DNA of 64,000 bases from Chloroflexi bacterium TSY (lineage in GTDB: Bacteria > Chloroflexota > Anaerolineae > Caldilineales > Caldilineaceae), in assembly GCA_019217005.1 (NCBI GenBank), contig JAHBNG010000051.1:29948-93947 (forward strand). The letters run 5' to 3'. A model generated the notes under the pieces. That model did no database searches, had not been told where the DNA came from, and worked only from the letters and a program-made list of their open reading frames with translations. This document shows, in pieces, positions 3,991-24,495 of the stretch. Each line of letters starts with the position of its first letter. Position 1 is the first letter of the stretch. The translations under genes were made by a program, and so were the position numbers.

Positions 3991-4997
3991 ATGACCAAGT
4001 ATATTCAGCCGATTTTATATCCGCTACGCTCATGGATGGATCACATTAGCCTCATGGCATTGTCGATCATGGCTATACTTGCCGTCTATCAGTATTCGGC
4101 TGGTGACATTCGTCGTTGGGTGGCTCTCACCATTATGGTCACGTTTGCCTATGGAATATGGTGGTTGAAATGTGGCCCTGTTTTGTGGAAACAAAATGTC
4201 CGCATCGCAATTTTAGCACTGATGCCGTTGATGCTTGAGTGGTTAAATGTAGACGGATTTACCGTTGTCATCATGTACTTTATTCTGAGTTCCGGTGTGA
4301 TGGAGATGCTCCCACCGCGTTTGGGGTACCTTTGGATCTGTTTCTTTGGGCTTCTGACAGTGGGGCTCTATTTTCATTGGATTGGCTTGGATGGTCTCTT
4401 GAATGCCGTTGGCACGTTCGCTGGTTATCTATTCTTTGGCTCCACATCAGAAACTGCGAAGAGGGCCGCAGAAGCGAGTAGGGAGAGCCGGCGGTTGTTG
4501 GGCGAGCTGCAAGAAGCACATCGTGAGCTGCAAGAACGCGCTTCACAAGCAGAAGAATTGGCTGCTTCCGAAGAGCGTAACCGTCTTGCGCGCGAGGTAC
4601 ATGATACACTTGGACATCGATTGACCGTGGCAGCCGTTCAGTTGGAAGGTGCCCAAAGGCTCGTCAAACGCAACCCCGGCAAAGCAGAGATGATGATTGA
4701 CACGGTTCGTAAGCAAGTATTAGAAGGATTGAGCGAACTACGCCGCACAGTTGCGACACTGCGCGCCCCTCTCGAGGAAGATTTATCCTTGTCAAATGCG
4801 CTCACACGATTGGCCAGCAGTTTTGAAGAAGCAACCGGCGTAACAACCTATCTTTCTCTGGCGGACAATTTGCCACAAATACCCGACAGCAAACGGCACG
4901 CTGTTTATCGCGTGGCCCAGGAATCGCTTACAAACATACAACGCCATGCGCAAGCAGAACATGCCTGGTTACGACTGGATCGGCAAAATGGAAGTCT
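3991..4997 (+). pseudogene. Histidine kinase (NarL-type), N-terminal half
   Basis: Starts at ATG 3991. About six hydrophobic segments in the first 160 residues form a membrane sensor region. A coiled linker follows, then a HisKA_3 dimerisation domain with phosphoacceptor His in LAREVHDTLGHR, then the ATPase N box QESLTNIQRHA. The frame runs into a family-B element at 4998 just before the G1 box. The missing G1/G2 part lies at 18238-18432 on the opposite strand. Joined over the shared target the two halves give 398 aa, normal for this family. As it stands the protein lacks ATP-binding boxes and should be inactive. Confidence 0.9.
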
Positions 4998-6006
4998 CAG
5001 TAGATCCAAATTTCAGGTTTTGAGAGAGAATTCTGGCTAAACAGTTGACATAAATACAAATTTGCCGGTCGATATCTAGTTTTTGCGTTAGATTTGGGCG
5101 ATTTTCAGATATGAAATAGGTTGTTTTCTGTAACCGAAATCTGAATAAATGACTCCAAAATCCCTGCAATCTCGACTGAAAATAGCCAAAAACGCCAAAT
5201 TTGGATCTACTGAGACTGGGATACCAAGTTGTGGTAACATAATCTCGTGCATCCGCGACCATTTTGCCCCAGGTTGGCACAAGAGAGGAGATACCAAGTC
5301 CCAGGAAGCTCAGGGCTGACTCGGTAAGGATCATCGATCCAAAGGAGAGGGTTGCGGCCACGATGACCGGGGCAACCGCATTGGGCAAGATGTGCCGAAA
5401 CATGATGCGGATATCGCTAACGCCCAAGGCCCGCGCAGCCTCTACATAATCCCGTTCGCGGATACTCAGCACTTCGCCACGTACAAGCCGAGCAAAGCCA
5501 ACCCAAGCTCCAATGCCCAGAAAGATAATAATGTTCAAGATCCCGCTACCGACGAAAGCGACTGCTGCGATCAGGAGAACAAGAAAGGGGATGGCCGTCT
5601 GCGTGTCGGCAATCCGCATGATAATATCTCCCAATAGTCCGCCACGATATCCCGCAATCAACCCCAGAGAAATCCCCAATACCAACCCGATGATTACGGC
5701 AGCGGCTCCCACCAATAGCGAAATTCGCGAGCCAATCAGTACACGGCTGTAGACATCACGGCCCAAGTTATCACGCCCCATCAGTCCTGCTCCATCCACT
5801 GGATCGAGCCAAATGGGTTTGGCAAAGGGCTTAGAAAAATCAACGGCAACAGGATCATGGGGGGCCAGCCAAGTCCCAAAAAGAGCCATTAGGGTGAAAA
5901 CCAGCACGAGTAGTCCGCCAATGATGCCTTGACGGTGTTTCCATAGGTTGATGCGTTGCTGTGTTTTTATTGCATCCGTTGTTAGATGCTTGCTTACGTT
6001 GCTCAT
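4969..6006 (-). pseudogene. DppC-like ABC transporter permease, C-terminus replaced by MITE
   Basis: Genuine sequence runs 6006 down to 5213. It has the usual N-terminal helix and periplasmic insert, GRDNLGRDVYSRVL, five to six membrane helices and the EAA loop (EVLSIRERDYVEAARALGVS). It ends in WGKMVADARDYVTTTWYPS, where the last helix (about 25-30 residues) should begin. From 5212 the frame reads about 80 residues of family-B element instead. It belongs with the binding protein and DppB-like gene at 7581-9155 and 6556-7491. Loss of the last helix probably inactivates the importer. Confidence 0.88.
4998..5212 (-). mobile_element. Family-B MITE, copy 2 (inversion breakpoint)
   Basis: 215 bp, reversed relative to copy 1. 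Its flanks do not match (AGTCT on the left, AGACT on the right), unlike copies 1, 4 and 5. It carries the variant GGCTATTTT (versus GGCGATTTT in copies 1, 4 and 5), shared only with copy 3 at 18433. Kinase sequence lies to its left and permease sequence to its right: a recombination breakpoint. Confidence 0.92.
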
Positions 6007-6020
6007 TTAAGCTGTTCAGC

Positions 6021-6281
6021 TCATGCAGCCAAAGAGGGGATCGGCTGTTGGCTAACCACTAGATTCGCCAAAGGGAGAGCCGCAATCTCAAGTATCGATA
6101 AGTCTAACCGTTGACTTGCATCTTCTATTTCGATACCGATTACACTATTCCCAGCATCGTAATCTAGCGCAATATTGGGAGCCACTTCTTCCGATTCTGT
6201 GCTCACTCCATCTTTGAGTTGGATATAGAGCATATCGGTTTCTGGAAAATATTGAAAGACCATTTTATCTCTATTACTCAC
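6021..6281 (-). CDS. DUF2283 family small protein
   Basis: 86 aa. It matches the DUF2283 pattern: F/Y-x-P-E-x-D-x-L-Y-I-x-L, then SEEVAPNIALDYD, then VIGIEIEDAS. Function of the family is unknown; members often accompany toxin-like partners. The GTG start overlaps the upstream stop as GTGA, indicating coupled translation; ATG 6263 is an alternative. It lies between two ABC permease genes, an unusual place. Confidence 0.75.
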   Translation of the reverse strand: MSNRDKMVFQYFPETDMLYIQLKDGVSTESEEVAPNIALDYDAGNSVIGIEIEDASQRLDLSILEIAALPLANLVVSQQPIPSLAA

Positions 6282-6427
6282 TCATCAAATCCACGATCTG
6301 GGAAAGCATTATGCACAGTTTCACCATCAGGTTCCACAATTACACGTAAATATTGCCCCAACGATTCGATGTGTCCCCAGAAACGAATTAGCCTTTTAGA
6401 AAAAGATTTTCTTGTCGTTGATGGCAT
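6278..6427 (-). CDS. Small ORF upstream of DUF2283, probable C-terminal remnant
   Basis: 49 aa, beginning MPSTTRKSFSKRLIRFWGHI and ending NAFPDRGFDE, with its stop overlapping the DUF2283 start (GTGA). The central LRVIVEPDGE and the end look like the tail of a larger family that commonly precedes DUF2283 genes (recalled, not searched). No ribosome site is visible and an inverted repeat begins exactly at its start. It is therefore more likely the remnant of a longer gene than a complete one. Confidence 0.45.
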   Translation of the reverse strand: MPSTTRKSFSKRLIRFWGHIESLGQYLRVIVEPDGETVHNAFPDRGFDE

Positions 6428-6471
6428 TTCAGCTGGTCAGCTCGTCAGCTCTCTGGCTGACCGGCTGAAAT
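6426..6471. repeat. Inverted repeat (hairpin)
   Basis: Arms TTTCAGCTGGTCAGC and GCTGACCGGCTGAAA pair at 14 of 15 positions around a 14-nt loop that repeats CGTCAGCT. It lies upstream of the small ORF. It may be the scar of an insertion that removed the ORF's 5' half. Confidence 0.6.
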
Positions 6472-6555
6472 GCTGACAAGCTACTGTTTCGTGTGGAAAA
6501 GCATTATCTGAACATCTATAGGCACATAACTCTGTCAATACATCAATCTCACTTT

Positions 6556-7491
6556 TTAGCTATGCCGAATCCGCGGATCGACGATCACATAGACCAAATC
6601 CAATAACAAAAAAGTGAGAACCGTCAGCACCGAAAAAAGAATCACGTCAAGGAAAACAACCGGATAATCCCGCGCCATCACGGCCTGTGCGAGCAGGTTG
6701 CCAACGCCGGGCCAGGCAAAGACAACCTCAACGATGACGACTGTGCCAATTAGATGGGGCAATGCAGAGAGGGTGACTGTAATGATCGACATGCTGCCGT
6801 TGCGTAGGGCGTGACCGAAGATCACGCTGCGTTCGGCCAATCCTTTGGCTCGCGCCGTGCGGACGTAATCCTGATTCATCGCCTCCAACATGCCGGAGCG
6901 CCCAATGCGGGCCACTGTTGCCATCAACCCAGTGGAGAGCGTCACAGCGGGAAGAATCAAGTGTTTCCAGGTTCCTGTGCCAGAGGTAGGGAGCAAACGC
7001 AGCGTCACGGAGAAGATCACAATTAAGATAATGGCCATAAAGAATTGGGGCATCACAATCCCCAATACCGCGCCTGTTGTCGCTGCAGTGTCGATGAAAG
7101 ATCCCCGCTTGAGAGCTGCAATGATGCCCAGCGGTAAACCGACCAAAATCCCGATCACAGCTGCGGCAGCACCAAGCAGCAAGCTGTTGGGCAATCGTTC
7201 AAAGACAACGCGTGTGGCGGGTACCCCATAGCGAAAAGAATAGCCAAAGTCCATTTGAAGCGTACGCTGCCAGAAGACGAAGTACTGAACATAGAGCGGC
7301 TTGTCCAGCCCCATTTTGCGCCGGATCTCTTGATACTCAGCCTCGATCTCCTCCCGGTCCCGATTTGGATCCAGATTCACGCCCAAACTGGCTGGATCAC
7401 CTGACACCCGGATCAGGAAGAAGACCAACGTCACAACCAAAAATATGACGAGAACTGCCTGTAGCAGTCGGCGGACGATAAAGGCTTGCAT
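6556..7491 (-). CDS. DppB-like ABC transporter permease
   Basis: 311 aa from ATG 7491 (MQAFIVRRLLQAVLV, the standard start of this family). The N-terminal helix is followed by an extracytoplasmic stretch with the typical MGLDKPLYVQYF, then FGYSFRYG, more helices, and the EAA loop (MLEAMNQDYVRTARAKGL). It ends LVYVIVDPRIRH as expected. It acts as the inner-membrane partner of the DppC-like gene at 5213-6006 in peptide or oligosaccharide import. The binding protein lies 90 bp upstream; two small genes separate it from DppC. Confidence 0.92.
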   Translation of the reverse strand: MQAFIVRRLLQAVLVIFLVVTLVFFLIRVSGDPASLGVNLDPNRDREEIEAEYQEIRRKMGLDKPLYVQYFVFWQRTLQMDFGYSFRYGVPATRVVFERLPNSLLLGAAAAVIGILVGLPLGIIAALKRGSFIDTAATTGAVLGIVMPQFFMAIILIVIFSVTLRLLPTSGTGTWKHLILPAVTLSTGLMATVARIGRSGMLEAMNQDYVRTARAKGLAERSVIFGHALRNGSMSIITVTLSALPHLIGTVVIVEVVFAWPGVGNLLAQAVMARDYPVVFLDVILFSVLTVLTFLLLDLVYVIVDPRIRHS

Positions 7492-7508
7492 GGTTCTCCA
7501 GAAAATGT

Positions 7509-7570
7509 ATGACAAGATGAGGGGATGACAAGATGACAAGATGACTGTCCTGCAGCCCTCATCTTGTCAT
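7509..7570. repeat. Hairpin with short GATGACAA repeats
   Basis: TGACAAGATGAGGG pairs with CCCTCATCTTGTCA, with further GATGACAAGATGACAA repeats between the arms. It lies between the binding-protein and permease genes. It could attenuate transcription after the binding protein, a common way to make more binding protein than permease. There is no clear T run. Confidence 0.5.
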
Positions 7571-7580
7571 CTTGACAAAT

Positions 7581-9155
7581 TTATTCGGATGGAACGTGCA
7601 TCTCAAAGGACTTATTAAAGCTTAGTTCGGGTAGATTCGGGGCCAATGCATAGAGTGCTGGAATAGTGTAGGCGTAGATAGCCTGGGCGTTTTCACAGGA
7701 ATAGGCTGCAATTTCTTTGACCACTTCCTCACGTTCGGCCGCATCCACAATTCCTCGCTTTGTAGTAACCCGCTCAACAAAGTCCGCATCGGTCGGTGTC
7801 CCATCCTTGACGGAGGTCCACATGGAAGAGTTATTGTCGAGCAGATACCAGTTCAGGCCAATGTTCATGATGGGTGGCAGGGTTTGGTCAATGAGTTGTT
7901 GTAGCCAGACTGAGGATTCCATAAACTCCATGTTGACCTCGATGCCAACCGCAGCCCACTGGGCAATCACAGCCTCCATGAAGGGTTGGTCGCGGAAATA
8001 GCGTCCAGCCGTTGAGGAGCCATCAACGGTAAAGCCGTCGGGATATCCCGCTTCAACGAGCAACGCCTTGGCCTTTTCTGGATCATAGGGATAGCGCATG
8101 ACGTCTGGATTGTAACCAAAACCACCTGGGGCCACGATTTGACAGTCCAGCAAGGTGCCGTAGCCGCCGGCGATCGTCTTCCACATGCCTTCCAGATCGA
8201 TGGCATAGAGCATGGCTTGCCGCACGCGCACATCCTGCATTGGTTCTGATTCGCCCCAAATGTCAAGACCCACATACATGCTCTGCATACTGTCACCAGC
8301 GAACAGCTCAAAGCCTTCCGCCAACAAACTATCAACTTGATCTGGCGCTACGTGAGCGGCAACGTGAATTTCGCCGCTTTGTAGAGCAGCCACACGCACT
8401 GCGGATTCAGGCATGTGGCGGAAGGTCACTTTGTCGATGACTGGCTTGTCGCCCGGATAATCTTCCCAACGCTCCAGGCTGATGAAGTTGTCTCGCTCCC
8501 AAGAAGCAAATTTGTAGGGTCCAGTTCCCACAGGTTCTTCAATGTACCCGTCAAGACCAACGGCTTCTAAGTGGTCCGGTGCGAGAGGCATGTGATTGGC
8601 AAAGAGATTGGCCCAGACATCGACTGGCTTGATGAGCTTGAACTCTATGGTATAGTCATCGATCACTTCATAGGATTCATAGTCGTTCAGCTGCCGGAAA
8701 GACCAGGTGAACTTCTGCGGTTCAGCATTTTTGAGGAACTCAAACGATCGGGCAAGACCAGGTGCAGTGAGCTGTTCCCCGTTATGAAACTGGATACCCT
8801 CCTTGATGACGATACGCACGGATGTATCATCAAGCAATTCCATCGATTCCAGCAAATTTGGTTCGATGGCCCCCGTCTCTTCATTCAAGACAGCCAGGGT
8901 TTCGTACATCAGTGTGGAAAAGATACGCGATTGGAGAGAAGGAATTGTATTGCCCACCAGCGTCACGGGTAGGGCCCCCATTCCCACGACCATCTCGTCG
9001 GGATAGCCCTCTTCGGCCATGGCTGTGGATTCCTCGCTGGATGTGGACTCTCCGGTTGCTGGTGTCGTGGCAGGAACACAACCTGCCAAAATCATCATCA
9101 GCAATATGCTAATGATGCCCAAAGTTCTGACTGTTCGATATGGCTTTTTGACCAT
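7581..9155 (-). CDS. Solute-binding protein family 5 lipoprotein (DppA-like)
   Basis: About 524 aa from ATG 9155, chosen because AAAGGAGG precedes it. The longer frame to 9242 reads into a hairpin repeat. The signal peptide ends in lipobox ILAGC, followed by a Ser/Glu-rich linker. The SBP_bac_5 pattern is clear: LNEETGAIEPNLLESMEL, IKEGIQFHNGEQLTA, PVGTGPYKF, VRQAMLYAIDLE. It captures peptides or sugars outside the membrane for the permeases downstream. Confidence 0.93.
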   Translation of the reverse strand: MVKKPYRTVRTLGIISILLMMILAGCVPATTPATGESTSSEESTAMAEEGYPDEMVVGMGALPVTLVGNTIPSLQSRIFSTLMYETLAVLNEETGAIEPNLLESMELLDDTSVRIVIKEGIQFHNGEQLTAPGLARSFEFLKNAEPQKFTWSFRQLNDYESYEVIDDYTIEFKLIKPVDVWANLFANHMPLAPDHLEAVGLDGYIEEPVGTGPYKFASWERDNFISLERWEDYPGDKPVIDKVTFRHMPESAVRVAALQSGEIHVAAHVAPDQVDSLLAEGFELFAGDSMQSMYVGLDIWGESEPMQDVRVRQAMLYAIDLEGMWKTIAGGYGTLLDCQIVAPGGFGYNPDVMRYPYDPEKAKALLVEAGYPDGFTVDGSSTAGRYFRDQPFMEAVIAQWAAVGIEVNMEFMESSVWLQQLIDQTLPPIMNIGLNWYLLDNNSSMWTSVKDGTPTDADFVERVTTKRGIVDAAEREEVVKEIAAYSCENAQAIYAYTIPALYALAPNLPELSFNKSFEMHVPSE

Positions 9156-9189
9156 TATGGCCTCCTTTGTCGGAAAAATATTTATGGGA

Positions 9190-9262
9190 GTGTGTACCAA
9201 AGTGTGTAAATGCAACCGATTCTCTGACTGAGCGGTCTCCATTTACATACTTTGGTACACAC
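9190..9262. repeat. ~75 bp hairpin repeat C, copy 2
   Basis: Near-perfect hairpin with arms GTGTACCAAAGTGTGTAAAT and ATTTACATACTTTGGTACAC. It lies in the leader of the binding-protein operon, about 35 bp upstream of its start. Confidence 0.85.
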
Positions 9263-9285
9263 TCAATTACATTGATGTAGAATTG

Positions 9286-9372
9286 TTAGGCTTTCAATTT
9301 TTCGAGGATCGAGTCTTCTATAAAATCCCACGCTTCTTTCAGAAACCACTTTCTGTGAAGTTTCGTCGACAT
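9286..9372 (-). CDS. Possible 28-residue peptide
   Basis: Starts MSTKLHRKWFLKEAWDFIED and ends SILEKLKA, amphipathic and charged. An AAAAAGGAGAAAG ribosome site sits at ideal distance from the ATG, stronger than for many neighbours. No family is recognised. It could be a leader or signalling peptide, or a remnant whose start survived. It lies between the transporter operon and the toxin-antitoxin pair on the same strand. Confidence 0.4.
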   Translation of the reverse strand: MSTKLHRKWFLKEAWDFIEDSILEKLKA

Positions 9373-9450
9373 ACTTTCTCCTTTTTAGAACAGGGTGATC
9401 ATTTAATGGAAACATAAGATGCAGACCAATCACTCTTTGTAGCCGACTAC

Positions 9451-9533
9451 GTGTTTATCCAAAAAGTTCTGCCACAAACCATTCCTGTTCGAGAAGACAA
9501 CCATACTCACAACCCTTTTTCAGGTAAGTTCTA
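9451..9533 (-). repeat. ~80 bp dispersed repeat D, copy 2
   Basis: Reads GTGTTTATCCAAAAAGTTCT at one end and CACAACCCTTTTTCAGGTAA at the other. This is the reverse of the 2037 and 58129 copies and more diverged. It abuts the 3' end of the BrnA gene. Confidence 0.55.
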
Positions 9534-9791
9534 ACTCGCAATCACCTGCAACTCTTCCCGAATGACCTTGCGTAGTGTGTTTTCGAGTGTTTGTTCTTGA
9601 TTCCGAATGTACTCTCGGAGTGCTTCGTTGATCAGGGTTTGGTAGTTCCCACCGCCTGCTTCATGTACTTCATGGCGAAACCAGTTTAGAATATCAGTGT
9701 CGATCCGGATCGTAATGCGTGTTTTGCCAGGCGGTGACGCCACGACCGCCCCTTGCACTGAATTGTCAAAGTCATGCTCTTTTTCGCTCAT
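9531..9791 (-). CDS. brnA: BrnA-like antitoxin
   Basis: 86 aa from ATG 9791 (MSEKEHDFDN). The ribbon-helix-helix core ITIRIDTDILNWFRHE followed by GGGNYQTLINEALREYI is characteristic of BrnA/CopG-type antitoxins. It overlaps the end of the toxin gene by about 20 bp. It neutralises BrnT and, by analogy with the known pair, represses the operon through the palindrome at 10060. Confidence 0.88.
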   Translation of the reverse strand: MSEKEHDFDNSVQGAVVASPPGKTRITIRIDTDILNWFRHEVHEAGGGNYQTLINEALREYIRNQEQTLENTLRKVIREELQVIAS

Positions 9792-10047
9792 AAGTTCTCC
9801 TTTGCCGTTTTGTCGCACGGCGGGCCGAAATCAAACGAATGTCGTCATCTCGATGGGTGTAGACCACGACCAATACTCGTCCCAGGAAATCCATACCGAG
9901 AGAAATGAATCGCTGCTCACCATCAATATCTTGCTCCTCGAGAGTTAATGCCCATTCATCCTCTAACGCGCCAACAGCATCCGCGAAATCTATGTCGTGT
10001 TTCTCGAGATTAAATTGAGCTTTATCGGGATTCCATTGGTAGCTCAT
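9772..10047 (-). CDS. brnT: BrnT-like toxin
   Basis: 91 aa from ATG 10047 (MSYQWNPDKAQFNLEKHDID). It shows the BrnT pattern: the F-x-W-D-x-x-K-A-like start, N-x-x-K-H, EDEWALTLEEQD, R-F-I-S-L-G and the end IRLISARRATKRQRRTYE. The family is a RelE-like ribonuclease that halts translation. Toxin-first order with an overlapping antitoxin is usual for BrnTA. Confidence 0.9.
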   Translation of the reverse strand: MSYQWNPDKAQFNLEKHDIDFADAVGALEDEWALTLEEQDIDGEQRFISLGMDFLGRVLVVVYTHRDDDIRLISARRATKRQRRTYERKRA

Positions 10048-10059
10048 GAGCAAATTGTA

Positions 10060-10074
10060 TGCACAAATTGTGCA
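10060..10074. promoter_or_regulatory. Candidate BrnTA operator
   Basis: TGCACAAATTGTGCA: perfect 7-bp arms around one central base, 13 bp upstream of the toxin start. It is the right size and place for a ribbon-helix-helix repressor, and a promoter-like CATACAAT overlaps its edge on the minus strand. Role inferred. Confidence 0.5.
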
Positions 10075-10192
10075 CGAGTCAAGTGTGAGCAGATCTGTGA
10101 CCTGACATGAAACAAGGGAGGAGCTAACTCAGCTTTCTGCTCTTAGTTCGTAGATTTCTTTGCAAAGAAGAGCTGGAAGATGCCATAGCTAC

Positions 10193-11281
10193 TCAAAGTT
10201 CCCCCAGTTTTTCCAATACCGGCCACAAATCCAACTGCTCAACGGCATGGCTGCGATAAATGCCCAATCCATCCGCTCCGTTATTCATCACAATTTTCCC
10301 GGCAGCCAACATAAGTTCGGGATCCTGAAAACTGCCTGGATGATAGGCCGACAACTCGGCAATGACAGGCACGCGGCCATTGGCAACCCCCACTGCATGG
10401 CGAATCTGTTGTTCGAGTTTGGTCAGGTCCGAATCGGTACGAAACCAGATATAGAACTCATCCAGAATTCCTTGCTCGATCCAAGCCGGCCAGTCATGGA
10501 GTAGCTTGAGATAGTCGTCCGGCTCACCCGTAATCATGGTTGTGGAGAAGACAGCGTTTGGAGACAGTCGCTTGACCTTGGTCCTCAGTTCGGAGAGGAA
10601 AAGGGTGACGTAGTCAGCGCGAAATTGCATCCACTCTGGATCGTCATTCGGGAGTGCAAAGGCATCCTTTCCCGTCTTTTCTCGAAACTCAGCGACCACA
10701 CGATCTTCATAACCATAGGGTACCACACCATTTTCATCTTCATTGCCCAGCACAAACTCGACCTGGATACCGTCTCCTTTGGTTGCTGTTAGGGTGTCTA
10801 GAAAGATTTGGGACTGATTCTCCCGTACTTCTGGGAAGGCCGGGCTGAGGTAGACGTCTTCCCCTGGATTGAGGGTATAAGCACAGCTGCGAGTCAGGCT
10901 GCGGTATTCGGGGTGTTTGCTGGCAAAGTCGGCCACCGTCGTGGTGACCTTGGGTGCATCGTAGATGGGAATGTGGTCTTTCAAGATTGCGTTGGCTTGC
11001 GGATCGTCCACCGGAACACGTATAAAGTCTACGGACCAGCCATAGGTAACCCTAGCGCTGCCGTAGCGGGGAAAGGAGTTGTAGTTGATGTAGGGATCTA
11101 CCTTAATTCCGACTTCATGAGCGGCTTCAGTCAGGGCAAGCGTACGATCTCCACCAATGATCTTCGAAATGCCAACATCGGCACATTTCTTCACCCAATC
11201 TGGCAAGTGTTCAGCGTAATCGGGGCTGTCGGGGGTACTATTCACAGCGGGTGGTCCCCAGAGTATCAATCGTTCAGGCAT
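10193..11281 (-). CDS. GHL10/DUF-type glycosidase-like TIM-barrel protein
   Basis: 362 aa, no signal peptide. Features of family-10-like hypothetical glycosyl hydrolases: a barrel-like pattern with ILWGPPAV at the start, GIKVDPYINYNS, LSPAFPEVRENQSQIFLD and KGDGIQVEFVLGNED. This last resembles the strand bearing the catalytic acid in the GHL group. Actual activity is unproven. It stands alone on the minus strand upstream of an aminotransferase gene. Confidence 0.6.
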   Translation of the reverse strand: MPERLILWGPPAVNSTPDSPDYAEHLPDWVKKCADVGISKIIGGDRTLALTEAAHEVGIKVDPYINYNSFPRYGSARVTYGWSVDFIRVPVDDPQANAILKDHIPIYDAPKVTTTVADFASKHPEYRSLTRSCAYTLNPGEDVYLSPAFPEVRENQSQIFLDTLTATKGDGIQVEFVLGNEDENGVVPYGYEDRVVAEFREKTGKDAFALPNDDPEWMQFRADYVTLFLSELRTKVKRLSPNAVFSTTMITGEPDDYLKLLHDWPAWIEQGILDEFYIWFRTDSDLTKLEQQIRHAVGVANGRVPVIAELSAYHPGSFQDPELMLAAGKIVMNNGADGLGIYRSHAVEQLDLWPVLEKLGEL

Positions 11282-11374
11282 ATCTGCTATGCTACCTTTC
11301 TTGGCTTGTTTTGAACACTATGTATACTCCGCAGCAGCACATTATAACATTATCTCTCGACTAAAAAGTGTTAT

Positions 11375-11396
11375 TTTATGGCGCTGCTCAGTATAA
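11375..11396 (+). repeat. Short dispersed repeat E, copy 2
   Basis: TTTATGGCGCTGCTCAGTAT, matching 1995-2016 at 18 of 20 positions. It is preceded by CTAAAAAGTGTTAT. Confidence 0.4.
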
Positions 11397-11468
11397 CGTT
11401 TCCTCTCCACCTTTTCTTGATGCGGGTTTACCGACCAAATAGTCTCGAATGGCTATCGTTTCATTGTA

Positions 11469-12662
11469 TTAATTTCTTAGGCCCTCCTCGATGCCTTCCA
11501 AAAGCCGTCCCACCTCATCTTGCGTATTATAGGCAGCCACCGAAATACGCATGGCAACCTTCACAGGATCAGGGGGTGCGGTCAACCATTGGGCTTTGAC
11601 GACCACTTTCTGCCTCTCGTACAAATGCTCAACAAGCGCATCCATGTCGGTTTTGGTAAACCCATCAAACATAAGTGAGGAAATCCCTGCATATTTCCCC
11701 TCTTCCAATGATGTAATAATCCGGGCCCGATCTATCTGGAAAACGCCTTCACGGAGCGTTTGAGTTAGGCCTGCCGCTGTGGCTTGAATGGTATCCAAGC
11801 CGATGCTTTCTGCAATCTCAACGGCCTTGCCTAAGCCAACCACAAGAGCATGGTTATAAGTACCAATCTCGCTACGAGAACTGGCTGTTGCGACAGGAGT
11901 TGGTGCGTCTTCGAGCGTCCACGGATTACGGTCGGGAATGAAGTTGGGGCGATAGTTGGGCAGTCGCTTATTGGAGACCACCACGAATCCTGTTCCCATG
12001 GGACCCAGAAGCCACTTGTGACCGGAGCCAACCACATAGTCGCAATTGAGTGCCGCGAGGTCCACAGGCATCTGGCCGACGGTTTGGGCCACATCCAGCA
12101 CAACAGGAGCCCCCCACTCGTGAGAGATATCAGCTGTCTCTCGCACTGGCAACAGGCAGCCGTCCGGGGAAGAGATGTGGCTGATGCAGACCAACTTGGT
12201 GCGCTCGGTTAGAGCAGAAGACAGGTTCTCCAAGAGTACATCATCGCCCTGATCCGCCGGAATCACTTTCACATGAACGCCATACTCGTTCCGCAGTTCA
12301 TGGGAAACACCATATGTACTGACATGCTCTGACGAAGTCATTATCAATTCATCGCCGGGTTGCCATTTGATGCCGTGAATGACCAGTTGCATCGCGCGGG
12401 AAGTATTGATCATAATGGCCAGTTCCTCATTGGGAACGTTGAGCAGCCGCGCCAACTGGCTTCGCGCCACAGCTTCCCGCTCGACATGAGACGCACGACC
12501 AGCCGGTGTGGCTGGTCCGTGGTGTGCCTCCGCCTCCATCACCTCTCTTACCGTTTTTAACACAGGGTTGGTGGCTGGACCATAAGTGCCTGTTTGGAAA
12601 TAGGCTACCTCCCGCGTCATGGGGAGCTCTTGCCGCAGCTCTTCCACCGTCATTTTTGGCAT
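11469..12662 (-). CDS. Class V aminotransferase (isopenicillin-N epimerase-like)
   Basis: 397 aa, usual length. PLP-binding Lys is in GSGHKWLLGPMGTGF, and the cofactor Asp in APVVLDVAQTVGQMPVD. The N-terminus YFQTGTYGPATNPVL is typical of the cysteine desulfurase/epimerase branch. The motif around Lys and lack of a loop Cys argue against a sulfur-transfer enzyme; an amino acid transaminase, lyase or racemase is more likely. GAGAGGAA lies upstream of the ATG. Confidence 0.88.
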   Translation of the reverse strand: MPKMTVEELRQELPMTREVAYFQTGTYGPATNPVLKTVREVMEAEAHHGPATPAGRASHVEREAVARSQLARLLNVPNEELAIMINTSRAMQLVIHGIKWQPGDELIMTSSEHVSTYGVSHELRNEYGVHVKVIPADQGDDVLLENLSSALTERTKLVCISHISSPDGCLLPVRETADISHEWGAPVVLDVAQTVGQMPVDLAALNCDYVVGSGHKWLLGPMGTGFVVVSNKRLPNYRPNFIPDRNPWTLEDAPTPVATASSRSEIGTYNHALVVGLGKAVEIAESIGLDTIQATAAGLTQTLREGVFQIDRARIITSLEEGKYAGISSLMFDGFTKTDMDALVEHLYERQKVVVKAQWLTAPPDPVKVAMRISVAAYNTQDEVGRLLEGIEEGLRN

Positions 12663-12904
12663 ACTCGATTCCTCTCAACGCCATTTGTAATCGATTTCTA
12701 TTCCAATCAATAATAGGAGGGTATATTGGGTTTTACTTTGAATGTGAGGTCAGTTGATATCTTGTTCGCTCTGTCGGAGGGATGAATTCTATTGTAACAG
12801 TTTGTGTCTTATTGTCAAAGCCCAGCGCACATTTGGGTATGTGTCAGATTTCTGGGAAACAGAGTTGTTGTGCTGCTGCGGCGTATATAGTCAAGCTAGC
12901 GTCT
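12663..12904. other. Intergenic stretch, nothing recognised
   Basis: About 240 bp between the aminotransferase start and the 3' end of the methyltransferase. It must hold the aminotransferase promoter, but no clear motif or repeat stands out. Confidence 0.4.
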
Positions 12905-15585
12905 TTATGAAGAGACAATCTTATATACCCGAAACCCCACTTCTTCAGCATCCTCCATCTCCTGCAAGACATGCCGAATCCGCTCCTTCCCAATTTCAGC
13001 AATTGTCTCGAAACCAGCCAGCCAAGCACGCGAATTTTCGGGCGTTGGCTCAGGTTGCTGCACCATGATAAATCGACGCTTGCCGCCATCTGCTTGATTC
13101 TGGGTCAACACGGCATGAGCCATGCTGCATGAGCCAGCGAAAAAGTCGAGGACAAGATCACCTTGATCAGAATTGGTGTCTGTTCCAATGGTCAGGAAAT
13201 AGCGTAGGTAGTCAGTTGGTTTGGGATTGTTGAAGAGAGAGACGCCAAAGAGCCGCTTAATCTCTTGTGTGCCTTTGTTGTAAAGCCCCACCAAGCTCTT
13301 GGGCACCAAAGATGCAGGTGCCCCCATGGCATTGCCCAAGTGCTTCTTGATGTAAATATTCCAGCTTGCTTGATGGCCTTCTTCATTAATTAGTGGGCTG
13401 GTTTTGGTTGCTTTAAAGACCACTAGATCGTCTTGTAGCGCCCGTTCGAAGCGTTCACGGACAAAGCGAAAGAGATAACCTGGTCGTGGTTGGACAAGCG
13501 TTCCATCGGGGCACTCGATTAAATAACGTTGCTTTTCATTGGTCGAAGCCGTTATCCAAGCGAAATCCTTTTCTCGATAGGGACCACGTCCATCTTTCCG
13601 TTTATACTGCCTAACTGCCTCCTGTGAAAGTGGTGCAAAGAGTTTGGGAAGCATCTCAATGTCTCGAGCATAGCAAAGGGCATACTCATGATTGCGATTC
13701 ACATATTTTGCCCGTATCCCCCCTGCCGTGGACGAATGCCAAACAAACTGAGCAACGAAGTTTTCTTCTCCGAAAATTTCATTCATGACCATCTTAAGAT
13801 GGTGCACTTCGTTGTCATCAATACTGATAAAAATGAGACCATCAGGACGCATCAATTGACGTGCGAGGATCAGACGCGGCGTTATCATCGATAACCACAA
13901 CGCATGCTGCATTGTCCGCTGATTCAATCCAGATGCTGGAACGTCTGGGAGTTGGTCATCTATCGAGTCTGATTGTGATGAACTATGTAGAGCCTGTTTT
14001 CCATTTTCCTGAACTTTCTCTCGATAGAATCGATCCTTATAGGCTAAACCAAAAAAATAAATAATTATACGCGAACGAGAGAATGGAGAGGGGGAATAAG
14101 GACAAACCATTTTTCTAAACCAGGTAAACGTTGGAAGCGTTGTTCCAAACGGTCCATCTCTTTCTGAGTGAGTTTGACGCCGGTCTCATAAAGAGTGGAA
14201 TTCAGGTGAACGAAGGGTTGTAGTTGGTTAAAGCGAAAAGAACGGGCAAAATTGAGAACGGTCTCAAGAGAATCGAGAAGAGAACCGTTCCAGTGTTTTT
14301 CAAGATGGCCCCAAACCCGTTCGATGGGGTTGTATTTACTGTGATAAGGAGGGTAGCAGGCGAGCTGAATAGAGAGACGATAGTGCTCAACAAACTGAGT
14401 GAGACGATACATAAACTGAGTCCGACGGGTATGATTTTCGGGACCATTGTCCTGATTGATCACGAGGGTCTTGACGTGAGGAAAGTGTTCACGTACGCTT
14501 TCCCAAAAAATCAATCAGGCAGTCGACAATACAGTCACTCGTCACTTTCGACTGAGTCAAGTAAAGAAAGAGTTCCTTGGTTGAAGGGAGGTAAATGCCA
14601 AAAGGAGTGACTTTCTCGGTCTTCTTATCTTGAAAGTCATGATCGAGCGCTTTGACAACCACTCGACTTATCCCTTCTCTCGAGAAACGGTCAAGTAAAA
14701 TCGTCGCTTTGGCATCCCAAGAGAGGCGCAGAACCGTCTCGTCTGCATCCGCTTCTTGATTGATCTGATGAATTCTATCAAAGATCGCATCGGTCTCTGG
14801 GATCTTTTTCACTGGTTGACTTTTTTTGACCCGGTTTGAGCCATAGCCTAACTCATTGAGCTTCAAGCGGATGGCCTCTTCGCCAGGCAATTCCTCATCT
14901 GTGTATCCTTTCTGCTCGATGAGCTGGGTACGCATTTCGGCGGCGGTTAGTCGAGTGTACAATTGGGGTCGAAAGGTGGGATCGGTCTGGCTGAATTGAT
15001 CGGCGATTTCAACCATATCGGCCAGTAAAGTGGGGATATGGTCTTCGGCTTTTGCGACCACGTCGGTGGCTTTGGTCGACATAACAGAAGCCGCCTTCTA
15101 GTTCTTCCAGGGCTTTGGCTATCGTCGCCCGATTCCAGCCCAACTCTCGTTCTGCTTTCGTCGGACTCCCTTCGCATATCGTTTTGACCGTTTGGGCCAT
15201 GAAGTGCCTTCTTTCGTATCCACTTAACATGGCCTTCGTCTCTTTCAAGACTTCAACCATTTCTGGCGAGATTGTCATTTTTGCTCCTTTTGGAGAGCTA
15301 GTTTAACACCTTCTCGCGTATATTTTATTTTTTGGATTGGCCATAAACAAAATCTTTTCCCGTGTTATAGGGTGGATCGATATAGATCATCTTCACTTGA
15401 CCCAAATACTGCTCTTGTAGCAGCTTGAGGGCTTCGAGATTATCGCCTTCAATGAAGAGATTTTCTGTTTGATTCCAGAAGAGAGACTCCTCTGGCATAG
15501 GAATCAATCTCCCCAACGTTGGCGTCTGCGCGAGACGAAGGGCCTCTCGCTTGCCAGGCCAAGTAAATGAAAAGGATTCATACAC
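12905..15585 (-). pseudogene. Beta-class DNA adenine/cytosine-N methyltransferase split by an IS
   Basis: The N-terminal part (15585-15336) has LFIEGDNLEALKLL and the catalytic DPPY in KMIYIDPPYNTGKDFVY. The C-terminal part (about 14048-12905) has RQLMRPDGLIFISIDDNE and the SAM-binding VLDFFAGSCSMAHAVL. DPPY before the FxGxG-like motif is the beta-class order, as in type III Mod subunits. An ISAzo13-like element separates DFVY from YKDRFYREKVQENGKQ, which are normally adjacent. No Res subunit lies beside it, so it may have been an orphan or part of a lost type III system. Certainly non-functional as it stands. Confidence 0.88.
14049..15335 (-). mobile_element. ISAzo13-like insertion sequence with frameshifted transposase
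   Basis: About 1.29 kb. Ends are inverted: CCAAAAAAATAAATAATTAT and the complement of TCGCGTATATTTTATTTTTTGG, both with ATACGCGA inside. Transposase pieces lie in three frames on the minus strand: 15278-15009 (N-terminal helix-turn-helix), 15082-14489 (KALDHDFQDKK, VTPFGIYLP) and 14514-14065 (VINQDNGPENHTRR, PPYHSKYNPIERVWGHLEKHW). The order fits the ISAzo13 DDE family. Two frame breaks suggest decay, unless one is programmed. Target duplication could not be fixed. Confidence 0.78.
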
Positions 15586-15675
15586 GAGATTTTCCTTGCC
15601 TCAGCCTTGATGAAATTTAGTGAATACAGTTACCCAATTGTTCTGTGCTACCTTTATACAGCAGAACAAGAGACA

Positions 15676-15750
15676 GTGTGTCCCAATGTGTATAAATGAA
15701 GACCACTCAGTCAGGGAACATGCTCCATTGACACCCTTTGTGGCATACAC
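15676..15750. repeat. ~75 bp hairpin repeat C, copy 3
   Basis: Diverged copy: arms GTGTGTCCCAATGTGTATAA and ATTGACACCCTTTGTGGCAT. It lies between the response regulator's 3' end and the methyltransferase. Confidence 0.7.
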
Positions 15751-15794
15751 CCAGACAAGATGAGCCAGAATAAGCCGTTTGTTCTACAATATTT

Positions 15795-16475
15795 CTACAA
15801 GAATCCCAATTCACGACCGCGTAATGCAGCTTGTGTTCTATCACGCACACCGATTTTTTGTAAGAGGGATGTTACATAGTTCTTGACGGTTCCTTCGGCG
15901 AGGAAGAGGCGTTGGGCAATCTCGCGATTGGTTAAACCCTGAGCGAGCAAGCGCAAGATCTCCAGCTCACGTTCTGCCAATGGCTCTGCTAGACCAGCAT
16001 CAGGTGTGCGCGCTGGCTTGGCAAGACGTGCAAACTCAGCCACTACTTTGCGCGTAACAGAGGGATCAATCAGTGCGTTGCCTGCAGCCACAGTGCGGAT
16101 GGCGTGGGCCAATTCATCACCTGATACTGCTTTGAGCAGATACCCTTGAGCACCGGCCCGCAATCCTTCGAAGACAAATTCATCCTCATCAAACGTCGTG
16201 AGGATGATGACTTTGGCGTCGGGCCAGCGTTCGCAGATCCGACGCGTCGCTTCGACACCATCCATACCCGGCATACGGATATCCATCAGAACGACTTGGG
16301 GGTGAAGCAACGCATACTGATCAAGAGCGACCTGACCATTCTCAGCCTCACCCGCGACATTGAGATCTGGCTCAAGTTCCAGCAGCGTTCGCAACCCATC
16401 GCGCATTAAGCGCTGATCATCGACGAGCAATATGCTAATTTCTTCAGTTGAACCAGCCTTGAATGAATGGGTCAC
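15795..16475 (-). CDS. NarL/FixJ-family response regulator
   Basis: 226 aa. Receiver domain: acidic pair in LLVDDQRLMRDGL, phospho-Asp in VVLMDIRMPGMDG, switch Thr in VIILTTFDED, Lys in GYLLKAVS. The C-terminal LuxR helix-turn-helix reads LAERELEILRLLAQGLTNREIAQRLFLAEGTVKNY. Its ATG overlaps the ThDP gene's stop by 4 bp. The broken histidine kinase, whose C-terminus lies at 18238-18432 upstream on the same strand, is its likely partner; with that kinase split, normal phosphorylation is probably lost. Confidence 0.93.
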   Translation of the reverse strand: MTHSFKAGSTEEISILLVDDQRLMRDGLRTLLELEPDLNVAGEAENGQVALDQYALLHPQVVLMDIRMPGMDGVEATRRICERWPDAKVIILTTFDEDEFVFEGLRAGAQGYLLKAVSGDELAHAIRTVAAGNALIDPSVTRKVVAEFARLAKPARTPDAGLAEPLAERELEILRLLAQGLTNREIAQRLFLAEGTVKNYVTSLLQKIGVRDRTQAALRGRELGFL

Positions 16476-18016
16476 AAGATAACCTCGATCAGGCGCGGTC
16501 CTCGATTCTTTACGGCAGACTCAAACTGGCTGGCGAATTCTTCGGCTGTTGTGGCCTGCGATGCCTCAACACCCATCCCATTGGCAATTTGACACCAGTC
16601 GAGATCGGGATTTCCCAAATCTAACATCTGTTGCGCTTTGGGACCACTGCCGTCTGCACCAACCTTTTGCAATTCCACTTGCAAGATAGCGTAAGCTCTA
16701 TTTGAAAAGAGCACAGTTACAATGTCCAGATTTTCGCGGGCCATGGTCCAGAGCGATTGAACTGTGTACATAGCCGAACCATCGGCCTGCATGTTGAGAA
16801 TTTTGCGATCAGGGCAGGCAACAGCCGCGCCAACTGCCATGGGCAATCCATTTCCGATCGCGCCACCCGTGACGCGGATCTCATCGTAGGGTGGAGCTCC
16901 GGCCATCCACTTTTGCGCACCACGGCCAGAAGTCACCGCCTCCTCGGCAATCACAGAGTGCTCTGGCATAAACGCGGAAACAGTGGCCCAAACTTTCGGT
17001 GGATCAATGGGACCGGTCGGCAATGGTGGGCGGTTTCGCTCGTGAATCCGGCCTGGTTCATCGGGTACGTGTAGCTCTTCAATCAGTGCTCCTAGGGCTG
17101 CAATTGGGTCATCTTGAGGCGTTGCAAGGGTATGAATCTGGCAATCGGGTGGCACAGGCGTACTTGGTGTATCGGGGAATGCAAAGAAATTTACGGGCTG
17201 TCCTGTACCAACCAGGATGATGTGGGCAGTGCCTTTAAAAGCCTTTAGTGCCTGTTCAACAGGGTAAGGTTGGGTTTCAATCATCGCGCGTCCGGCACCA
17301 CGCTGGATCCGCCCATTGGCCATCTTGCACATCAGTCGACTGTTTGTTGCGTGCCCGATCCGGCTAGCAAGATGCAATCCATGCTCCATCAGCACTGTTC
17401 CTGACATAAAAAACATCGTTGGTTCGTCATTACGCAGGATGCTGGCAATTTCGGAAATCCGTTGGCTATCGACACTGGTTGGCTGAGGAAGCCGTGGCGC
17501 AGGTGCAGGATCTACGCTTTTTTCCCAGGTGCAGTCACCGGGTAAGATCAGCGTCGCGATCTGTCCTGGCGGCTGCATGGCCGCAGCGATCGCTGCAGCA
17601 CCATCAGCCGGGACGCTCACAGCGTCTTTGGATGAATGTACCCAGGCAGAAACAGGGCGCGCCACAGATTCGATGTCAGATGTCAAAGGCGCGTCGTATC
17701 GTAGATGATAAGTTGCATGGTCACCCACAATGTTGACAATTGGGCTTCCAGCACGTTTGGCGTTGTGTAGGTTCGCAAAGCCATTGCCTAGACCTGGGCC
17801 GAGGTGAAGCAAAGTTGCGGCCAGCTTGCCCGCCATCCGTCCATAGCCATCCGCTGCGCCGGTGCAAACACCTTCGAACAGGCCAAGAACTGTACACATG
17901 CCAGGGACTTTGTCGACGGCAGCCACAAAATGCATTTCGGACGTGCCAGGATTGGTAAAACAGACGTCAACCCCACCATTAACCAGGGTTTGGATTAAGC
18001 TTTGGGCACCATTCAT
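16472..18016 (-). CDS. ThDP-dependent enzyme, acetolactate-synthase/benzoylformate-decarboxylase-like
   Basis: 514 aa, shorter than acetolactate synthase (about 560-600). The N-terminal PYR domain carries the activating Glu region LGLFEGVCTGAADGYGRMAG. The C-terminal ThDP/Mg motif reads ADGSAMYTVQSL with Asn about 23 residues on (FSNRAYAIL). The central FAD-type domain is reduced. Annotated relatives are usually called acetolactate synthase large subunit, but a decarboxylase or lyase of 2-oxo acids is equally possible. It is translationally coupled to the response regulator. Confidence 0.82.
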   Translation of the reverse strand: MNGAQSLIQTLVNGGVDVCFTNPGTSEMHFVAAVDKVPGMCTVLGLFEGVCTGAADGYGRMAGKLAATLLHLGPGLGNGFANLHNAKRAGSPIVNIVGDHATYHLRYDAPLTSDIESVARPVSAWVHSSKDAVSVPADGAAAIAAAMQPPGQIATLILPGDCTWEKSVDPAPAPRLPQPTSVDSQRISEIASILRNDEPTMFFMSGTVLMEHGLHLASRIGHATNSRLMCKMANGRIQRGAGRAMIETQPYPVEQALKAFKGTAHIILVGTGQPVNFFAFPDTPSTPVPPDCQIHTLATPQDDPIAALGALIEELHVPDEPGRIHERNRPPLPTGPIDPPKVWATVSAFMPEHSVIAEEAVTSGRGAQKWMAGAPPYDEIRVTGGAIGNGLPMAVGAAVACPDRKILNMQADGSAMYTVQSLWTMARENLDIVTVLFSNRAYAILQVELQKVGADGSGPKAQQMLDLGNPDLDWCQIANGMGVEASQATTAEEFASQFESAVKNRGPRLIEVIL

Positions 18017-18086
18017 AAAATTCTCGCTGTGTTGGTTTTTTGATTCAGGACTTGTAAAAGAATAGACATGATAGGGATTGAAATTA

Positions 18087-18157
18087 GGACACGGATGAAC
18101 ACAGATTTCACGGATTGATTCTGAGATGATCCGTGTTCATCCTGAAAATCCGTGTCC
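18087..18157. repeat. GGACACGGA hairpin repeat
   Basis: Imperfect inverted repeat: GGACACGGATGAACAC at the left, GTGTTCATCC and ATCCGTGTCC at the right. It lies in the 220 bp between the histidine kinase C-terminus and the ThDP gene, so it could act as a processing or termination site in that operon. Confidence 0.6.
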
Positions 18158-18218
18158 CATATTCTTAATCTTTATAATCTCTAATAACTGCACTTCTACC
18201 CGACGGAAAACGGTCAAG

Positions 18219-18240
18219 TTTATGGCAATGTTCAGTATTA
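18219..18240 (+). repeat. Short dispersed repeat E, copy 3
   Basis: Begins TTTATGGCAATGTTCAGTAT, a third copy of the motif at 1995 and 11375. It abuts the stop codon of the kinase C-terminal fragment. Confidence 0.35.
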
Positions 18241-18432
18241 TTCAGTTTTTGACGATTTTTCCTGGATCGGCACAGAAAATGATAGCCGAACACCCTGACC
18301 TGGTTGGGATTCTAAATGTAAGGAGCCGCCTACCTGAATTGAACGTTCTTCAAGACCACGCAAGCCAAAGCCTTTTCCGTTCTTTGATTGTTCAATGCCG
18401 ATACCATCATCGCGGACCGAAAGAACGATACT
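18238..18432 (-). pseudogene. Histidine kinase, C-terminal ATPase fragment
   Basis: About 64 residues. G1 box RDDGIGI, G2 box GKGFGLRGLEERS, then GGSLHLESQPGQGVRLSFSVP, the canonical end of HATPase_c in NarL-type kinases. It starts abruptly at the family-B element at 18433. Its first codons (SIVLSV) continue the QNGS that ends the fragment at 3991-4997. It has no start codon of its own outside the MITE. Confidence 0.92.
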
Positions 18433-18647
18433 CAGTAGATCCAAATTTGGCGTTTTTGGCTATTTTCAGTCGAGATTGCAGGGATTTTGGAGTCATTTAT
18501 TCAGATTTCGGTTACAGAAAACAACCTATTTCATATCTGAAAATCGCCCAAATCTAACGCAAAAACTAGATATCGACCAGCAAATTTGTATTTATGTCAA
18601 CTGTTTAGCCAGAATTCTCTCTCAAAACCTGAAATTTGGATCTACTG
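18433..18647 (+). mobile_element. Family-B MITE, copy 3 (inversion breakpoint)
   Basis: 215 bp. Left flank ATACT and right flank AGACT do not match. It shares the GGCTATTTT variant only with copy 2 and has a private CGACCAGC. Kinase C-terminus lies to its left (minus strand), ABC-exporter sequence to its right. Confidence 0.92.
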
Positions 18648-20566
18648 AGACTAGTGAACGCTTAATCCACACACTCATGCAACTGAAAGCAGCTTCAACC
18701 ATTGTCCTCGTGAGCCATCGACCTCAAGTAATCCGTGCAGCTGACCATATCTTGGTTTTGGACGACGCACAGATCGCAGGTGAAGGGACTCATAACGAGT
18801 TGCTGGCCCAAAACGCAACATATCAGGAGCTATTCAGCGCGGGTTTTGGGGAAACATTGTCACCGTCTTTGATCACAGACCGCGACGTAGCACCTGGCCT
18901 ACCAGAGAGCAATGAAAACCCACTACAAGTAACTAATGCGCCAGAGCCTAGTACAATTGGGCGTAAATACCACGACAGAAATATGGCAGCTTTTTCTTTG
19001 GTAGAATCTGCCCAATTATTTCTGTCGGGATTTACTAGTGAACCTCATGATAGGACAAATGTTCGGCGAATTGGGTTTTCTGAGGAGGGACGTCCACTCT
19101 TGGCGGAATTCGTCGGATCCCGTCATGCACGGCTGCGCGTCCTTTTGATGGGCGGACAGCATGGTGATGAACCTCTGAGCTCAGCGGCAATTGAACAATT
19201 TGCCCGGGAATGGAAGAATGATGAAGAGAGGAAATTCGATGTGCAGTTGGCCATAATACCCTGTCTAAACCCAGACGGCGCGGTTTCCAATCAACGCCAC
19301 AATGCTCGAGGTGTGGATCTCAACCGAGATCATCAACGTTTGCAGAGCGCAGAAGTATTGGCACTTCATCGCTTTGTGCGTTCTTGGCGACCCCATCTCG
19401 TCATTGATACCCACACCTATCCAGCACGCCGAAAACATCTCTTACAGCATGGGTTGCTCTATTATCATGATGTCTTTCTGGATGTTGCGACTCATCCCGC
19501 AATTGTGGGTGTAGGTGCTGACCAGCTAACGAATAACGCATTTATTGATCAGTTTCTGCGGCCAGTCCTAGCAAAGCTGAGTACCTATGGCATATCGGCT
19601 GAACGTTACACAATCATAAATCGTAGAAAGAAGATACAGGACGAGATGAAGAAAACTCTGCAAAAACAGCCGAATATTTCGGAGCCACAGTTTCAAAGTA
19701 TGGGCCGAGTGCGCCATAGTACCCCAGACATCATTGACGCTCGAAATGGTCTTGCATTGCGCTACGGCTGTATGACTGTCCTCATTGAAGGACGTCAGCC
19801 ATATGAAAAAAATGCACCGTCTAGCCAGGAGCAAGCCTTACACAGCATGGTGACAGCGCTTCGTGAGACTGTTTTATGGGCTCTTGAAAATCGGGAACAA
19901 CTTCAAAACGAAGACCTGGTCGGGGCAACAAGCTCGTTCCCATCGAGCTATCAATATGTATCTGAAGGCTCATACACAATGATCTTCTTAGATTACCATA
20001 AACGCAGCCCGAAAAAAGTAACGATCCCCAGTAAATACACACCACGAATCAAGCCCACCACTTGGGTTGATCTACCTAGCGCATACGCAATCCCCATCGA
20101 AAATCAAGAGTTATTGTATTTGCTGATACGGCATGGATTTGAGTTCAAGATACCGGGTCGCGAAACCGTGTGGGTGGAGTCCTATACAACGGAGTCCTAC
20201 GTCCCGTCCCATCGAACGAACCGCGTCGTACGCAAAAGCCAGTTCAAAAAAGATGTTGTACTGCAACAGCTCAGTGGGCACTGGCTCTTTCCCACCAATC
20301 AACCGGGTGCAAGAGCACTGGCTGCGCTGCTGGAGCCTGGGTCAAAAACAGGTCTAAGCCGCTATCCAGAATTTGGACTAACCCTCGCCATCGGTCAACC
20401 ATATCCAATCCTACGCGTCATTCACGTACCCACACCTGACGTTGCAGATGCTCACAGGGCAAAAGACCTAAATCAGATTGGCATTGTTACCTCATCAACA
20501 GTAAGTGCCGCCTCAGGCAGCTCCCAACGGACTTGTTCAGCTTGTGTGTCCAGCCAATCGTCTTGA
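18648..20566 (+). pseudogene. ABC-exporter ATPase C-terminus fused to M14 zinc carboxypeptidase
   Basis: The open frame enters from the family-B element. The first ~60 residues are the end of an exporter-type nucleotide-binding domain: H-loop ASTIVLVSHRPQVIRAADH, then ILVLDDAQIAGEGTHNELL. Without a stop it continues through a ~60-residue linker into an M14 peptidase: zinc ligands in GGQHGDEP (HxxE) and IDTHTYPAR, substrate Arg in GVDLNRDH, probable catalytic Glu in TVLIEGRQP. A C-terminal domain (WLFPTNQPGARALAALLEP) is typical of bacterial M14 proteins. The membrane domain and Walker A/B of the exporter are missing, cut by the MITE. The peptidase could still be made from ATG 18983. The fusion itself is unusual; the last ~20 residues may be out-of-frame tail. 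Confidence 0.8.
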
Positions 20567-24290: not shown

Positions 24291-24495
24291 TCATAGTTCT
24301 CCTCTGAAGGCGCGTTGTTGGAGAGAATGGAAGAGGTTGTCTAGATGTTGCCGTCCTGTGTAGAAATGTTGTTTATACTTTTTTAGTTGGGCGACACGGC
24401 CAGTGAACTCATGTTGGATATCCAACGGCGGGACAATAACCAGTGTGTTTCGCACCTGCTTCGAACTAATTGTGTTTAGCCCTGATGTTGTTTTA
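24291..24495 (-). pseudogene. hsdS: Type I specificity subunit, C-terminal remnant
   Basis: About 67 codons, frame ending FHSLQQRAFRGEL before TGA at 24291. Earlier it reads VRNTLVIVPPLDIQHEF and VAQLKKYKQHF. The P-P-L-x-x-Q motif, the helix after it and the QQRAFRGEL end are typical of HsdS. The rest is cut off by the IS4-like element at 24496 and is not found on its other side, so a deletion accompanied or followed the insertion. Confidence 0.85.

Follow-up and report, generated by a model that had tools for sequence, protein, structure and literature searches.

Halves of a histidine kinase gene on opposite strands at inverted copies of a miniature transposable element in Chloroflexi bacterium TSY: a case for repeat-mediated inversion

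Introduction

How do two parts of what appears to be a single histidine kinase gene come to lie 13.2 kb apart and on opposite strands, each adjoining one of two mutually inverted copies of the same short repeat? The question is raised by a 64-kb stretch of contig JAHBNG010000051.1 of Chloroflexi bacterium TSY (the window, by which we mean the whole 64,000 nucleotides analysed), in which the repeat, here termed family B, is a miniature inverted-repeat transposable element (MITE) of 215 bp. A first-pass annotation of this DNA had proposed that homologous exchange between two inverted MITEs flipped the segment between them and thereby split the kinase. In our assessment, the likeliest cause is an inversion through the inverted MITEs accompanied by at least one more exchange, an explanation that we favour, if with considerable reserve. 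The case is a repeat-mediated rearrangement of a known kind, provided that the assembly is correct at the join.

The split histidine kinase

The features on which the argument turns are the following.

3991-4997, plus strand: N-terminal part of a HisKA_3 histidine kinase (Pfam), comprising codons 1-334 and the 5-bp target, and reading into copy 2
4998-5212, minus strand: family-B MITE copy 2, with flanks AGTCT/AGACT (element orientation) that do not match
5213-18432, no strand: stretch that appears to be inverted, judged from the kinase join, the orientation of the MITEs and the strands of the genes
18238-18432, minus strand: C-terminal part of the histidine kinase, comprising the last 64 codons and the stop, and beginning at copy 3
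18433-18647, plus strand: family-B MITE copy 3, with flanks ATACT/AGACT (element orientation) that do not match

When the two halves are joined with one copy of the 5-bp target, a single 398-aa frame is restored, reading ...LDRQNG-SIVLSVRDDGIGIE... across the join, and its product shows 55% identity over 98% of its length to P0002, an intact homologue of 396 aa. The join is free of gaps against 8 of the 12 aligned homologues (P0002, P0003, P0004, P0005, P0006, P0008, P0010, and P0034), and in pairwise BLAST comparisons with 119 homologues the spacing from half to half is exact in 61 and 1-12 residues larger in 56, two homologues not being printed. The C-half contains the motifs DDGIGI and GFGLRGL, which we take to be the G1 and G2 motifs. 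Among the best 120 of 2558 matches in the kinase search, only the window's own record is near-identical, and all others reach at most 57% identity. Judged from these alignments, the in-frame join is very secure, as the first-pass annotation had held; given the restored frame and the homologue spacing, chance is not a realistic source of it, and the two halves very probably belong together.

The order of events differs from that first proposed. The frame of the N-half terminates within copy 2, at 5040, and because it stops inside the element, it was the insertion of the MITE, and not the inversion, that broke the kinase; the inversion would have parted the halves of a gene that was already dead.

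Family-B elements in the window

The 64-kb window holds five family-B copies, three of which lie outside the kinase. The first of them adjoins a transporter gene.

2482-3769, plus strand: MFS transporter (Pfam MFS_1), cut by copy 1 at its last codons
3770-3984, plus strand: family-B MITE copy 1, with matching target repeats AGACT/AGACT
31498-31712, minus strand: family-B MITE copy 4, with matching target repeats AGTCT/AGTCT
36963-37340, plus strand: family-B MITE copy 5, with matching target repeats AGGAT/AGGAT and a family-A element nested inside

All five copies carry perfect 16-bp terminal repeats (CAGTAGATCCAAATTT) and lack a transposase, and the 5-bp target duplication matches at three of the five (copies 1, 4, and 5). 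With terminal repeats in the absence of a transposase, a target duplication, and many copies, family B is a MITE by the usual definition. The nested element aside, the window copies vary at positions 29 and 147 only, with T at position 29 in copies 2 and 3, and A at 147 in copy 3 alone; copies 2 and 3, inverted relative to each other and 215 bp long each, thus differ at one internal base (99.5% identity). Copy 1 is predicted to fold into a long hairpin (z -3.1), with 3 of 200 shuffled sequences folding equally well. No further place in the window resembles the 16-bp terminal repeat with up to three mismatches, an autonomous relative not having been sought beyond the window.

Computational removal of the copies with matching repeats, one target copy being kept each time, is informative about how the family inserts. 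Without copy 1, the MFS gene ends in TAATG, its TAA overlapping the ATG of the kinase; without copy 4, one frame continues for at least 399 codons; and without copy 5, one continues for 128 codons, the last being a weaker case. Since omission of these three copies yields plain gene structures, family B normally makes simple 5-bp insertions. The family-A element inside copy 5 (GGGGTGGTTC...GAACCACCCC) has an apparent 8-bp target repeat, ATTTCGGT, and six more copies or partial copies of family A occur in the window.

Evidence for a probable inversion between copies 2 and 3

Inverted homologous repeats, copies 2 and 3, stand at both breakpoints of the stretch, whose limits agree with those given in the first-pass annotation, and re-inversion reunites the kinase halves at the first breakpoint, once the MITE is also left out. 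The genes that bear on the orientation of the stretch and on its two junctions are listed below.

5213-6006, minus strand: dppC-type permease truncated by copy 2, matching Pfam BPD_transp_1 up to profile position 152 of 184
15795-16475, minus strand: LuxR-type response regulator (Pfam Response_reg and GerE), with a 4-bp overlap with the end of the ThDP gene
16472-18016, minus strand: enzyme dependent on thiamine diphosphate (ThDP), whose best-scoring solved relatives are benzoylformate decarboxylases
18648-20566, plus strand: C-terminal part of an ABC-exporter/M14-peptidase fusion, starting at copy 3 and with ABC exporter matches

Among open reading frames (ORFs) of at least 80 codons, 15 of the 16 within 5213-18432 lie on the minus strand, all four on the left side are on the plus strand, and so is the gene at 18648-20566 on the right. 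The ThDP gene and the response regulator gene follow the kinase C-half on the same strand, and flipping the stretch produces one plus-strand run of MFS transporter, kinase, ThDP enzyme, response regulator, and onward; kinase, ThDP enzyme, and response regulator may once have formed one operon. As evidence for the inversion, gene strand is weak, because co-directional runs are common.

Comparison with distant ThDP loci and base composition added little. None of six such loci (49-59% identity, 8-21.5 kb each) showed a relative of either the kinase or the regulator at E 1e-3, so that the ThDP gene, tried as a guide to the ancestral order, is silent on the order here; a HisKA_3 search of three of the genomes behind these loci gave a match in one. 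Third-position skew was uninformative, at 0.051 for minus-strand genes inside the stretch versus 0.065 for other minus-strand genes.

Family-B copies elsewhere in the genome

A search with the element-encoded peptide identified 28 proteins among 35 candidates, namely the window's own record and 27 others, all 27 of them from Chloroflexi bacterium TSY (P0122-P0148). This bacterium is listed as unclassified within the Chloroflexota; to guess by its name, it may be the Theonella swinhoei symbiont 'Poriflexus aureus', whose genome PMC12858407 puts at about 14 Mbp. Each of the 27 carries all or part of one MITE-encoded stretch of about 75 residues, and these tails are not natural protein domains. 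As an open frame passes through the element, most of the 27 proteins show codons on both sides of it, and the 5-bp repeat can be read from the protein, with the limitation that silent differences escape the test. Among the 27 copies, 23 were testable in this way, of which 17 were compatible with a matching repeat and six were not; four were not testable. Pooled with the window copies, 20 of 28 are compatible, whereas shuffling the right-hand flanks 20,000 times yields 8.2 on average and never more than 17.

These counts bear on two claims by which copies 2 and 3 had been singled out. Mismatched flanks do distinguish them among the five copies of the window, but not in the genome, where the six incompatible copies share this property; and the variant GGCTATTTT, confined to copies 2 and 3 in the window, is not so confined in the genome. 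Among the 25 other TSY copies that are readable at this site, residue Y (equivalent to T29) is present in 12 and residue D (equivalent to G29) in 13, so that T29 is a common variant in this genome, and GGCTATTTT was rejected as evidence that copies 2 and 3 had exchanged.

How the mismatches arose is less clear. All eight among the 28 are explicable by a single base, an outcome whose probability under random re-pairing is about 0.13 and which does not decide the matter. The near-invariant interior of the element makes it seem unlikely that mutation alone lies behind all eight; some may nevertheless have other causes, such as mutation or imprecise duplication. The kinase provides an example: its halves very probably belong together yet its flanks mismatch (AGTCT/AGTAT), so that a one-base difference can arise otherwise, and flank mismatch does not serve as proof of recombination. 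For the six mismatched copies among the 23, frequent re-pairing of flanks, imprecise duplication, and assembly chimeras are the candidate explanations. Were re-pairing the source of all mismatches, about 39% of copies would have been re-paired. A wider reading, in which this one 215-bp MITE family is scrambling the TSY genome, with a quarter to two fifths of its copies flanked by sequence from two insertion sites and gene halves spread by exchanges, seems to us doubtful.

What a single inversion leaves unexplained

Several observations weigh against the favoured inversion or show that it is incomplete. At the kinase join, 4 of the 12 aligned homologues (P0014, P0021, P0040, and P0066) have an insertion of 1-10 residues beside the join, and among the listed homologues the best BLAST match differs between the halves, being P0094 for the C-half (61%), which has just 64 residues, and P0002 for the N-half (57%). 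When the flip is undone, the flanks at the kinase read AGTCT/AGTAT and those at the other junction AGTCT/AGACT; as neither pair matches, a single exchange between copies 2 and 3 does not explain the mismatched flanks, as the first-pass annotation had supposed. The reciprocal junction rebuilds no gene and instead joins the truncated dppC to the unrelated, truncated ABC-exporter/M14 gene. The exact 20-base pattern from the start of the element is absent from the genome and viral contig collections, which thus offered no relative with the uninverted order.

Both genes at the reciprocal junction lack one end. The truncated dppC product matches the solved DppC 8z1v_B (300 residues) from residue 23 to residue 267, with about 30 C-terminal residues missing. 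The product of 18648-20566 is 54% identical to P0150, an intact fusion of 1114 aa consisting of an ABC membrane domain, an ATPase, and an M14 peptidase; the alignment begins at residue 528 of P0150, so that the piece lacks 527 N-terminal residues and opens within the C-terminal portion of the ATPase domain. To break three genes at two junctions takes at least two exchanges (or misjoins), whose order is not fixed by the data. The proposal of a MITE-mediated inversion thus keeps its support in the inverted copies, the in-frame rejoining, and the strands of the ORFs, but one inversion from an intact ancestor is insufficient, given the dppC/ABC-M14 junction.

The favoured course of events can be outlined as follows. 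A family-B element entered the kinase gene and brought its frame to a stop, as the sequence at copy 2 shows, and other family-B copies would have inserted into dppC and into the ABC-exporter/M14 fusion gene, as the gene pieces cut short by copies 2 and 3 suggest. Homologous exchange between near-identical copies would then have re-paired their flanks. An exchange of the inverted kinase copy with a copy joining dppC to ABC-M14 would have turned over 5213-18432, and at least one further exchange, earlier or later, would account for the dppC/ABC-M14 pairing. The most likely agent, on general knowledge, would be RecA-type homologous recombination, acting on 215-bp repeats that are 99.5% identical.

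Alternative explanations

The main rival, an artefact of assembly or amplification, is a possibility to be taken seriously, even if we consider it less probable than a genuine rearrangement. The contig would have been wrongly joined at copies 2 and 3, and the kinase N-half, MITE, and kinase C-half would in truth stand in a row. It is general knowledge that inverted, near-identical repeats are a classic cause of flipped segments in draft assemblies. In short-read assemblies of Porphyromonas gingivalis, two thirds of the gaps fell on copies of insertion sequences (ISs) or MITEs, and some of the repeats proved to be loci that published genomes had misassembled, according to PMC5771137. Non-matching flanks at six of the 23 other testable TSY copies fit an artefact as well, and a junction of dppC with ABC-M14 makes no sense as an ancestral state. 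On the other side, the window crosses five family-B copies, several family-A copies, and two IS-like copies of 1.5 kb (longest exact match 367 bp) without an N, and passage through so many repeats suggests that long reads were used. Moreover, it would be rare for random misjoins in a large genome to place the two halves of one gene within 13 kb of each other, whereas a local flip would do so.

Two other biological routes lead to the same arrangement. The kinase copy may have exchanged first with a copy in an otherwise complete dppC gene, and the junction so formed with the ABC-M14 copy thereafter, without any direct recombination of copies 2 and 3. The breakage of three genes at two junctions does require at least two exchanges in unfixed order, yet this path is no more economical than the preferred one, and the missing parts of dppC and of the ABC gene are not found at window copies 1, 4, and 5, whose flanks rejoin each other, which leaves it unlikely. 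Replicative inversion driven by a transposase, by which the kinase MITE would have been copied to a distant site on the same molecule, would generate the inverted copies and the flip in one step. It agrees with the presence of T29 in both copies 2 and 3, and the new target repeat would consist of the flank of copy 2 on its inner side and that of copy 3 on its outer side, AGTCT versus AGACT, alike at four of five bases. The two differ, however, at the central base, T29 is widespread among the copies of the genome, and the target would need to have been a pre-fused dppC/ABC-M14 site; we regard this route as highly improbable.

Two further candidates were rejected. If 4998-18647 had moved as one composite, both of its outer flanks should carry one target repeat; they read AGTCT and AGACT, and the stretch contains half of the target gene. 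Nor is there a sign that the kinase is switched on and off reversibly, in that the element stays in the gene in either orientation, flipping back included, and the part read before the stop is identical in copies 2 and 3.

Other features of the window

Within the stretch, the truncated dppC gene is accompanied by further transporter genes.

6556-9242, minus strand: dppB-type permease and family-5 solute-binding protein (Pfam)

A BrnT/BrnA-like toxin-antitoxin pair lies at 9531-10053, also inside 5213-18432. In the region 12905-15585, an ISAzo13-type transposase, itself spread over two ORFs, appears to interrupt a DNA methyltransferase gene (N6_N4_Mtase at 12905-14110); the ORF lying upstream (15325-15585), without a Pfam match, ends in a DPPYNTG-like motif, presumably a methylase motif. 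A palindrome-like repeat, ACACGGATGAACACAGATTTCACGGAT..., was seen by eye at 18089-18158, between the kinase C-half and the ThDP gene. The ABC exporter joined to an M14 carboxypeptidase-like domain is itself of note as a gene fusion with an intact relative (P0150).

Two other kinds of repeat were observed. The 1.5-kb IS-like repeat is present in inverted copies at 24495-25992 and 46984-48492, which are 99.2% identical and 21 kb apart, and the DNA between them could likewise be flipped. Short dispersed repeats, 77-86% alike, occur at 2038-2191, 9179-9264, 15672-15755, 37942-38024, 39731-39805, 48510-48593, 54555-54639, and 58127-58222, some of them near the starts of transporter genes.

Significance and comparison with known systems

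The locus shows in readable form how a small repeat may kill a gene first and part its halves afterwards. Matching of the two target repeats of each copy provides a simple genome-wide test by which, in a repeat-rich genome, simple insertions can be distinguished from copies that were rearranged or misassembled. In annotation, the element explains an unrelated stretch of about 75 residues, whole or partial, in 27 further TSY protein records. In a limited check of the openly licensed literature on MITE inversion or recombination and on Chloroflexi bacterium TSY, no account of the family-B element was found.

The arrangement resembles those that arise in bacteria when IS or MITE copies undergo homologous recombination, in that near-identical inverted repeats lie at both ends and gene halves are parted. 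It differs from simple recombination of this kind in its reciprocal junction, a hybrid of two other broken genes that calls for more than one exchange. Short non-autonomous elements can also bound larger structures, as they bound the present stretch; unlike a composite moved in one piece, the stretch has AGTCT/AGACT as its outer flanks and half of the target gene within it. MITEs are named as hotspots for homologous recombination in a review (PMC10969869), where the Correia element of Neisseria gonorrhoeae is another MITE family linked with inversion; as that text is worded, the Correia element itself inverts, whereas here the DNA between two copies would have been turned. In Drosophila, according to PMC4168063, ectopic recombination between copies of the transposon Galileo has produced chromosomal inversions, a similar outcome; those inversions are eukaryotic and segregate in populations, whereas in Chloroflexi bacterium TSY a single arrangement is seen.

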